Source: an uncultured Clostridia bacterium
Lineage (GTDB): Bacteria > Bacillota > Clostridia > Oscillospirales > Acutalibacteraceae
Length of the DNA stretch: 37,530 nt
Direction of reading: 5' to 3'
NCBI GenBank assembly: GCA_945980035.1
Contig: CAMFQG010000004.1
Span: forward strand, 1-37,530
How positions within the stretch are numbered: position 1 is the stretch's first letter; each line of letters opens with the position of its first letter. The translations under genes and the position numbers were made by a program. The notes under the pieces were generated by a model. It had not been told where the DNA came from. It saw only the letters and a list, made by a program, of their open reading frames with translations, and did not search any database. Shown here one piece after another: positions 23,050-25,845 of the stretch.

Positions 23050-23134
23050 GGGAGAGTTCCCGAGTGGCCAAAGGGGGCAGACTGTAAATCTGTTGCGATT
23101 CGCTTCGGTGGTTCGAATCCACCCTCTCCCACCA
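23050..23134 (+). tRNA. tRNA-Tyr(GTA)
   Basis: GGGAGAG...CTCTCCC acceptor, CAGACTGTAAATCTG anticodon arm, long variable arm, encoded CCA. Confidence 0.96.
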
Positions 23135-23183
23135 AGAAGATAAACACAGCATCCGCTGTGTTTATTTTCTTTTGTGAAAATAC

Positions 23184-23324
23184 GAGGGTGGATTCGAAAA
23201 GCCCGTATAGAAAACAGTCCTGTGGACTGTTTTTAGGGCGATGGGATTGCAGAAGCCTTTCCCTTTTACGTGAACACAGGCGGCGAGATTGAAGCTTGTG
23301 CATTGATGAACATAACCCTCTCCC
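23184..23324 (+). repeat. tRNA-Tyr-associated repeat, copy R1
   Basis: GAGGGTGGATTCGAAAAGCCCGTATAGAAAACAGTCCTGTGGACTGTTTTTAGGGCGATGGG...ATAACCCTCTCCC. Confidence 0.9.
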
Positions 23325-23381
23325 CACTAAAAACAAAACGTAATATAAAATCGCTGTGTTTATTTTCTTTTATGGGAATAA

Positions 23382-23656
23382 GAGGGTGGATTCGAAAAGC
23401 CCGTTTCGTCGTCCCAAAGTCCGCTTTGCTATAATTTTTTCAAAATTATTCTGCACGCTCCCTTGCTCCTCCTCTCCCCAAAGAGCAATTCTGCTCCTTG
23501 GGGTCCCCTCTTGGCAGTCCTGTGGACTGTTTTTAGGGCGATGGGATTGCAGAAGCCTTTCCCCTTTACGTGAACACAGGCGGCGAGATTAAAGCTTGTG
23601 CATTGATGAACATAACCCTCTCCCAAAACAGCAAAAAATGAAACGTAATACAGAGC
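23382..23656 (+). repeat. tRNA-Tyr-associated repeat, copy R2, carrying a ~110-nt hairpin-rich insert at 23405-23514
   Basis: Same core as R1 and R3. The short ATAGAAAA linker is replaced by three consecutive hairpins. Confidence 0.9.
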
Positions 23657-23670
23657 AAGGTGTAATATTT

Positions 23671-23967
23671 ATGTCGAATTGTACATCAAAAAAATATATT
23701 TTGGACTTTTCAGAATGTAAATATTTTGAGGAAATTCATCAAAAAATTCAAACGGTCTTAGAATTGCCGGATTGGTATGGACAAAATTTGGACGCTTTAT
23801 GGGATTCAATTACAGGTATTATGTATCTTCCTGCGGAAATCACTATTATTTTTCAACCGCAAACTATACAGGCATTACAGTTATCAGATGAGGTTGATAA
23901 AATAATTACTGTTTTTAAGAAAGCTGCTAATGAATTTGGTGAAATTGTTTTGAATATTGTAAAGTAA
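23671..23967 (+). CDS. Barstar-family (RNase inhibitor) protein, orphan immunity candidate
   Basis: YILDFSECKYFEEIHQKIQTVLELPDWYGQNLDALWDSITG fits the barstar pattern. ATG at 23671 preferred over the 23596 ORF start, which lies in the repeat. Confidence 0.85.
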   Translation: MSNCTSKKYILDFSECKYFEEIHQKIQTVLELPDWYGQNLDALWDSITGIMYLPAEITIIFQPQTIQALQLSDEVDKIITVFKKAANEFGEIVLNIVK

Positions 23968-24012
23968 CAAATTTGACAAATCAAATTAACTACACCCTAT
24001 GGAGGTAAAAAA

Positions 24013-24261
24013 ATGAAGATGATGGATTGTGTTGAGATAATCGTTGAAAAGGAAAAATATGCCAAAAACGGCGTTCATAAGGGTATGCAGGGGTGGATTT
24101 GCTTAGACGATTGTACTGATGGATATTGGTTGGTAAATTTTCCCCAATGCGGTGAAAAAGATGATATTGCAGAAATCAGTATAAATGAAAAAGATATGAT
24201 AACAATCTCTGCTATAGATGCTGAAATAAACGAAAAAATAAAAGAAATGTTTGGTGAGTAA
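24013..24261 (+). CDS. Small 82-aa putative immunity-type protein
   Basis: MKMMDCVEIIVEKEKYAKNGVHKGMQGWICLDDCTDGYWLVNFPQCGEKDDIAEISI; RBS TATGGAGG; directly downstream of barstar. Confidence 0.65.
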   Translation: MKMMDCVEIIVEKEKYAKNGVHKGMQGWICLDDCTDGYWLVNFPQCGEKDDIAEISINEKDMITISAIDAEINEKIKEMFGE

Positions 24262-24380
24262 CATTAAGCTAATATATTCAGTGACATATTAAGTGCTTTT
24301 AACAAATATTTATTTTTATTTTCTTTGGTTCGAAACTACCATAAAAATCAGAAATAACATCTTTTTTGCTCAACCCTTAC

Positions 24381-24420
24381 AACGAAACGAGTACATCACA
24401 CGATGTACTCGTTTCGTTTT
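24381..24420 (+). terminator. Strong Rho-independent terminator after the immunity pair
   Basis: 17-bp perfect stem AACGAAACGAGTACATC-ACAC-GATGTACTCGTTTCGTT-TT. Confidence 0.9.
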
Positions 24421-24430
24421 GTGGGAATAA

Positions 24431-24600
24431 GAGGGTGGATTCGAAAAGCCCGTATAGAAAACAGTCCTGTGGACTGTTTTTAGGGCGATGGGATTGCAGA
24501 AGCCTTTCCCCTTTACGTGAACACAGGCGGCGAGATTAAAGCTTGTGCATTGATGAGCATAACCCTCTCCCAAAACAGCAAAAAATGAAATGTAATACAG
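24431..24600 (+). repeat. tRNA-Tyr-associated repeat, copy R3
   Basis: Near-identical core to R1 and R2. Right flank AAAACAGCAAAAAATGAAATGTAATACAGAG shared with R2. Confidence 0.9.
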
Positions 24601-24724
24601 AGAGCGATATAGAGAAAAGGGCGGTAAAAGCACATTGCTTTTCAAATTAATTCACAAAAATTATCATAATTGCAATAGCAGAAAATAATACGCATTAACA
24701 TCAGAAATTATTATTTATTGAAAA

Positions 24725-24837: not shown

Positions 24838-25845
24838 ATGGGATTATTTGATAAAAAGTATTGTGATGTATGCGGAGAAAAAATTGGTTTACTCGGAAAC
24901 AGAAAGCTTGAGGACGGAAATCTTTGCAAGAATTGTGCAAAGAAACTCTCTCCTTTTTTCAACGAGCGAAGATCATCAACGGTTGATGAAATAAAACAAC
25001 AGCTTGCATATCGTGAAGAAAATAAAAGACAGCTTGCTTGCTTCAACCCGACACGAACATTAGGCACTGACGAAAAGGTATATGTTGATGAAATTAACCG
25101 CAGGTTTATCGTCACCTCATCATCAAACTGGAGAGAGCAGAATCCTGATATTATCGAAATATCTCAGGTTACAAGCTGTAATGTAGATGTCAGAGAAGAC
25201 AGAGATGAAATTATGCATACAGACAATCAGGGTAATGAGGTCAGTTACAATCCCCCCAGATATAAGTATGAATACATATTTAATGTTGAGATAACCGTAA
25301 ATTCTCCTTGGTTTAGTGAAATTAGTTTTGAACTTACAGATTACGGAAACCGTCCTGACAGCAGATATACTGATATTTACCGTGAATATGAGCGTCAGGC
25401 TGATGAACTTAAGAGATTGTTAATGCCTGCTGTGTATGGGAATCAGCAGTTTAACGGTCAGAATTTTCAGCAGAATAATCAGTCTAACTGTCAGATGCCT
25501 TATTGCGAACAGCATAATGTTTATCAGGGACAGGTTTATCAACAACCTCAGCAAGGGTATCAACAGCAGATGGGTATAATCAATCCCGGTATATCAAAGC
25601 AGTATGAAAACAGAAGTATTGGTATGACATGGGTGTGTCCTTCCTGCACAACGCACAATACCGGAAAGTTTTGTTCAAACTGCGGTTATTCACAGACGAA
25701 TCAACAGCCTGTGTCAAACAACAGCAATACAGGTGTACATTCATACAGATGTGATAAATGCGGTTGGATACCCAACGACACACAGAACATTCCTAAATTC
25801 TGTCCGCAGTGCGGTGATGTTTTTGATTTTAATGATGTAAAATAA
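24838..25845 (+). CDS. DUF4428-like zinc-ribbon protein with Gln-rich linker and two C-terminal zinc ribbons
   Basis: CDVCGEKIGLLGNRKLEDGNLCKNCAKKLSPFF; CPSCTTHNTGKFCSNCG; CDKCGWIPNDTQNIPKFCPQCG. Confidence 0.8.
   Translation: MGLFDKKYCDVCGEKIGLLGNRKLEDGNLCKNCAKKLSPFFNERRSSTVDEIKQQLAYREENKRQLACFNPTRTLGTDEKVYVDEINRRFIVTSSSNWREQNPDIIEISQVTSCNVDVREDRDEIMHTDNQGNEVSYNPPRYKYEYIFNVEITVNSPWFSEISFELTDYGNRPDSRYTDIYREYERQADELKRLLMPAVYGNQQFNGQNFQQNNQSNCQMPYCEQHNVYQGQVYQQPQQGYQQQMGIINPGISKQYENRSIGMTWVCPSCTTHNTGKFCSNCGYSQTNQQPVSNNSNTGVHSYRCDKCGWIPNDTQNIPKFCPQCGDVFDFNDVK

Follow-up and report, generated by a model that had tools for sequence, protein, structure and literature searches.

The window, a stretch of 37,530 nucleotides from an uncultured Clostridia bacterium (Oscillospirales, Acutalibacteraceae), contains a tRNA-Tyr(GTA) gene followed by three repeats, R1 to R3. 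A barstar-family gene and a gene for an 82-aa protein are placed between R2 and R3 (Table 1). A preliminary description had reported that each repeat carries 15-16 nt antisense to the tRNA, and this was confirmed. The 15-mer GAGGGTGGATTCGAA, the exact reverse complement of tRNA-Tyr positions 23112-23126, was found at 23184, 23382 and 24431 and at no other site of the window outside tRNA-Tyr itself. It did not arise in any of 100 shuffles, and the chance value for a given 15-mer was about 7e-5. In R2 and R3 the match extends to 16 nt (AGAGGGTGGATTCGAA). The likeness of the repeat ends to the tRNA 3' end could be specified, as all three repeats end on the right in ACCCTCTCCC, a 10-nt sense copy of the acceptor 3' strand. 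R2 and R3 are identical at 139 of 141 nt (23515-23655 and 24462-24602), including 31 nt past the sense arm, which bears out the common flank described as bracketing the two genes. This flank reads AAAACAGCAAAAAATGAAAYGTAATACAGAG, and R1 is followed by a weak version of it.

Two features had been missed in that first reading, namely an insert of about 110 nt in R2, of a type common to other copies, and the continuation of the palindrome through the tRNA-Tyr terminator. The hairpin formed by the tRNA 3' end (X), the terminator and the antisense arm (X') was predicted to fold with -49.6 kcal/mol (z -12.4). Directly downstream of R3, at 24838-25845 of the window, lies a gene that matches DUF4428 and, weakly, a double zinc ribbon.

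Table 1. Features of the tRNA-Tyr locus, in window coordinates
Feature	Position	Strand	Basis or remark
tRNA-Tyr(GTA), host gene, 3' end copied in arms	23050..23134	+	ARAGORN, Rfam
X: T-loop (T54) to CCA, template of both arms	23112..23134	+	
tRNA-Tyr terminator hairpin, centre of X-terminator-X' palindrome	23134..23171	+	inverted repeat, fold
R1 antisense arm X'	23172..23198	+	exact 15 nt 23184-23198; imperfect further towards CCA end
R1 core incl. covarying hairpin 23211-23233	23199..23314	+	R1 model match, covariation
R1 sense arm, copies tRNA acceptor 3' strand	23315..23324	+	
Copy of tRNA-Tyr terminator 3' half, in front of R2	23352..23369	+	direct repeat and inverted pair
R2 antisense arm X'	23381..23396	+	
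R2 insert, CGTTTCGTCGTC..GGGGTCCCC type, common to other copies	23405..23514	+	comparison with L011, L051
R2 core	23515..23614	+	model match
R2 sense arm and flank common to R3	23615..23655	+	
Barstar-family gene (cargo)	23671..23967	+	Pfam PF01337, E 4.5e-18; ATG start chosen by the authors
82-aa gene (cargo), probable immunity partner of DUF6883 protein	24013..24261	+	
Terminator hairpin before R3, unlike tRNA-Tyr terminator	24374..24425	+	inverted pair, fold
R3 antisense arm X'	24430..24445	+	
R3 core incl. hairpin 24458-24480	24446..24561	+	model match, covariation
R3 sense arm and flank common to R2	24562..24602	+	

R1 to R3 are members of a repeat family that lies, in Oscillospirales, behind tRNA genes and behind a small number of other genes with high expression. 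In the genome of the window (G000), a draft that is 94.5% complete, 15 matches were obtained by sequence search, and a covariance model gave 20. Copies with an assembled neighbourhood lie behind tRNA-Ser, Leu, Arg, Met, Gly, Pro and Tyr; most placeable copies adjoin tRNA genes of differing isotype, and their arms match the adjoining tRNA, which is not always tRNA-Tyr. A search of the core across the genus, with attention to tRNA proximity, had been proposed as a check. The model matched all of the 12 other genomes of the genus examined and some further genomes of the order. Matches were detected in 40 of 147 genomes at order level, a count that overstates the real units because several of these matches are the central hairpin alone; such matches were not counted as units. 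Seven of the 17 order-level loci that were read, from other genera or families, are tRNA-adjacent units with both arms. A genome scan with the exact pattern gave matches in the sister species and one MAG only. All compared genomes except E. coli are assemblies, many of them fragmented, and contigs break at these repeats. Many tRNAs examined in G000, G008, G009 and G012 are without a unit; the loci were mostly picked by model score, so that they give no unbiased estimate of what fraction of tRNAs has a unit.

The Rfam search of the window at gathering score returned tRNAs only, with no family matching the units, and a permissive search of 20 loci yielded tmRNA and no credible match to the units. 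A phage or plasmid element was discarded, as there was no match in either collection. The literature searched, with partial coverage, held nothing relevant on clostridial tRNA repeats, and a single paper describes repeats of this kind (PMC8144298).

The usual order of parts is a tRNA ending in X, the terminator, X', the core and the sense copy. X' usually ends at T54, and the sense copy, which is often accompanied by a copy of the terminator, usually begins 14 nt before the tRNA end. Among 138 tRNAs examined, most of those with a unit show 8-21 nt of exact antisense, usually 37-69 nt downstream, and also a direct copy, most often of 14 nt; for the remaining tRNAs the match is mostly 7 nt or shorter. 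Elsewhere in the order, several genomes have a sense copy of 18-22 nt. Together, X, terminator and X' make up a single long, imperfect palindrome, the breaks of which fall mostly in the acceptor/CCA part, and at a tRNA-Pro of G010 (L107) both arms are shifted upstream together. In two arrays (L101 and L111) the whole X-terminator-X' block recurs between cores; arrays grow in tandem.

Several variants were observed. A second long-insert type (GACGAGAACGACCGCCGCCGG...GCAATCGGT) occurs at five loci (L053, L054, L056, L080 and L104) and is common to different tRNAs and genomes, which suggests that modules are swapped between units. Behind tRNA-Leu(taa) of G000 (L005, contig C153), a short palindromic insertion of the CCCTCAGTCACTTCGTGACAGCTCCC type separates two units, and the antisense arm has a better fit to other tRNAs than to the local one. 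The tRNA-Gly, Arg and Val genes of L093, L161 and L109, respectively, are followed by a long antisense arm and by core-like sequence but lack a sense copy; these may be intermediates or decayed units.

The match between arms and host gene was evaluated for the 63 units that have a tRNA at most 450 nt upstream, each scored against 50 candidate 3' ends. The own tRNA was best or joint best for 45 of the 63 antisense arms and for 50 of the 63 sense arms. On the antisense side the own-tRNA mean score was 25.3, compared with a permuted mean of 13.7 and a maximum of 16.2 in 10,000 permutations; the corresponding values on the sense side were 22.9, 10.3 and 12.7 (10,000 permutations). Neither tandem units nor sister genomes count as independent, which lowers the effective number below 63, but the margin is still large. 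For about a quarter of the units the own tRNA did not rank first on the antisense side, and several units not ranking it first are long-insert variants or weaker model matches.

Hosts other than tRNA were also found. A tmRNA gene is the host in three genomes (L060, L088 and L110), with arms that fit each tmRNA end, and rpsI in two genomes (G005 and G004), again with matching arms. The G005 host protein ends in ...KYGLKSARRAPQFSKR before the stop; the G004 host, ending in FEKFSKR before the stop, was assigned to rpsI by that ending and the common 3' flank. These hosts argue against recognition of the tRNA T-loop. A device tied to tRNA-Tyr, as had been suggested, is not upheld, since the arms fit the gene that stands upstream, be it a tRNA, tmRNA or rpsI gene, and a Tyr-specific antisense RNA is likewise rejected.

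Mean core identity was 69% between different tRNAs of the same genome, 59.9% at the same tRNA in different genomes (sister pair left out) and 60.1% for unrelated pairs. Two cores of one genome are thus more similar than two cores at the same tRNA in different genomes, which indicates that the core spreads and that the arms are local. In the sister pair G000 and G008, core identity at the same tRNA was 80-95%, which shows that units are passed on in place as well. Covariation was seen in the core hairpin (CAGTCC/GGACTG versus TGCTCC/GGAGCA), with an outer pair of CC/GG, GG/CC or GC/GC, and 36 double-change cells were counted, compared with 13.3 in shuffles and 0-5 in slid controls. This suggests selection on structure, hence possibly function rather than neutrality; DNA hairpins would give the same signal, which therefore does not prove RNA.

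Cargo modules are located between units, and at least one has changed its tRNA locus. Most units are without cargo. As had been anticipated, the cargo varies between copies, with the barstar and 82-aa genes, a SHOCT-domain gene between two units behind tRNA-Leu in G010, and a 747-bp module at different loci. The latter, 99% identical in both places, lies behind tRNA-Leu(cag) in the sister G008 and behind tRNA-Pro(cgg) in G000, where its placement depends on joining contigs C73 and C120 over an overlap of about 50 nt. Its start lies exactly behind CCA, and at the far end CTCGGACCA corresponds to the 3' end of tRNA-Pro(ggg). The 181-aa protein of this module gave no Pfam, NCBIfam or PADLOC match at the thresholds used, and the cargo gave no match to the defence-gene library. 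A gene 95% identical to the 82-aa gene is present in G008 (SUG1473), directly 3' of a gene for a 213-aa DUF6883 protein (putative toxin-tip), and a fragment of the DUF6883 protein gene lies directly behind R1 at the tRNA-Tyr of G008. The DUF6883 and 82-aa proteins would constitute a toxin and immunity pair. The 3' ends of tRNA genes can in this way be identified as places where small immunity-type genes are shuffled with no visible integrase.

The family resembles the tRNA-linked repeats (TLRs) of E. coli (the tyrTV repeats or RttR RNA, and RrA, RrB and RrF behind 5S rRNA), which were first described in 1978 and also adjoin tRNA or rRNA genes. The E. coli TLRs comprise 22 genes at ten loci, their 3' end is identical to the upstream gene over 18-19 bp and, apart from the work on RrA, RrB and RrF, which are transcribed, processed and bind Hfq and CsrA, they have no known function (PMC8144298). 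Both groups share a 3' end identical to that of the gene before it, single or multiple copies at a locus and a core common to different tRNA loci, and the lysQ/lysV units also repeat the terminator. Besides the sense copy, exact antisense arms of 8-13 nt were detected in the E. coli K-12 units of tyrV (GGGGAAGGAT), argV (GGGAGGAT) and lysQ/V (GATTCGAACCTGC); by eye, argZ, argQ and lysT have imperfect antisense arms, and rrfB has the sense copy only. A cmsearch with the R1 model on the tyrTV, lysT-Q and valU-lysV loci returned no match with E up to 1, and homology to the TLR cores at these three tRNA loci was discarded. Being gene-adjacent, with a host-matched 3' end and with tandem and between-locus copies, the family is TLR-like, an Oscillospirales counterpart that has the layout in common with the E. 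coli TLRs and not the core.

What differs from E. coli is an antisense arm that is longer, usually reaching T54 in a palindrome that encloses the terminator, hosts that include tmRNA and rpsI, and cargo genes between units; the sense copy, usually 14 nt, is shorter than the 18-19 nt of the TLRs. That unrelated Oscillospirales have this layout too, their arms being fitted to tRNA, tmRNA and rpsI, indicates a general process. Integron cassettes with attC are similar in layout only, as structured variable direct repeats that bracket small accessory genes, whereas the arms described here copy the host gene and most units carry no cargo. MITEs and REP-type repeats are likewise short, non-coding, hairpin-bearing and interspersed with inverted ends, but the ends of the present units match the neighbouring gene instead of being element-specific.

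As a whole, these results are probably best explained by a counterpart of the TLRs with a largely neutral or selfish core, the arms of which are fitted by template switching together with recombination or slippage. The core would spread as such a repeat and would be tolerated behind highly transcribed genes because the gene 3' end stays intact. Replication template switching at the quasi-palindrome would fit the antisense arm to the local gene and keep it matched, and recombination or slippage between the direct copies would do so for the sense arm, the functional host gene being held fixed by selection as the arms adjust. The resulting direct repeats could become recombination sites for accessory genes, such as the barstar and 82-aa genes. 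Template switching at quasi-palindromes is an established mutation process in highly transcribed DNA (PMC3820800, PMC7202029), where it is raised (PMC3820800). Template switching is our preferred account of the antisense arm; it would account for how arms become perfect better than for how they first arise at a new gene, and would not by itself move the core. The units offer many natural replicates, with different hosts, empty and filled sites and moved cargo, and the origin of host-matched arms is therefore directly testable.

The movement of the core was considered separately. No RVT_1 protein was found in G000, G005, G006, G008, G009 and G010, and no Y1 transposase in G000, G005 and G008, all three unit-bearing, the assemblies being incomplete. 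Movement driven by a reverse transcriptase or a Y1 transposase was rejected, as the window's genome (94.5% complete draft) showed no such genes; an IS-type rve search gave one partial match. A wider proposal, which we regard as doubtful, is that of a mobile, non-autonomous element whose ends would be made from the 3' end of the highly transcribed gene behind which it lands, for instance through self-primed copying at the terminator hairpin, and which would carry accessory genes from one tRNA locus to another. One general process would then underlie both the E. coli TLRs and this family, as cases that are independent or very ancient.

Other explanations start from RNA, integration or cargo. If the terminator were read through, X' could mask the 3' half of the tRNA while the distal sense arm paired with the 5' acceptor strand, giving a regulatory or processed small RNA like RrA, RrB and RrF, which in E. 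coli are indeed processed transcripts that bind Hfq and CsrA (PMC8144298). The predicted fold of tRNA-Tyr with R1 shows both pairings (MFE and centroid, z -8.6) and the core hairpin covaries, but the X:X' fold follows automatically from the palindrome, a terminator normally precedes the unit and, within one genus, the cores at a given tRNA differ strongly from genome to genome. A functional RNA is for these reasons unlikely, and pairing with tRNA-Tyr may take place in read-through transcripts only. The possibility that the repeats serve primarily to capture and shuffle toxin-immunity modules is very improbable. It would account for the genes between R2 and R3, the DUF6883 gene fragment behind R1 in the sister species and the two further cargo loci, yet most units are without cargo, and the remaining cargo is a SHOCT-domain protein and the 181-aa protein without Pfam, NCBIfam or PADLOC match. 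From the recombination platform for immunity genes that had been proposed, the link to tRNA 3' ends and the movable cargo are retained, and immunity as its main role is not.

Small integrative elements, whose integrase recombines at tRNA 3' ends and leaves the sense arm as the displaced original end, seem quite unlikely as a general origin. A single core family is found at many target sequences that are unrelated to each other, rpsI among them, no integrase was found inside units, and the antisense arm would be left unexplained. The direct repeats are nevertheless of the expected kind, starting near tRNA position 63 and continuing through CCA and the terminator, and a putative native tRNA-Leu terminator stands after the distal arm in G008 and directly after the tRNA in G000. 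In G007 (L070, contig C13, 5' of position 735), a displaced tRNA-Arg 3' fragment precedes a unit and follows sequence that was read as the C-terminal end of a phage-type integrase; the tRNA-Arg end, together with its repeat, was apparently displaced there by an integrative element.

A unit of G010 (L105, contig C18) follows the 3' half of a tRNA-Leu, with no intact tRNA upstream. The same contig also has partial Y1 transposase matches.
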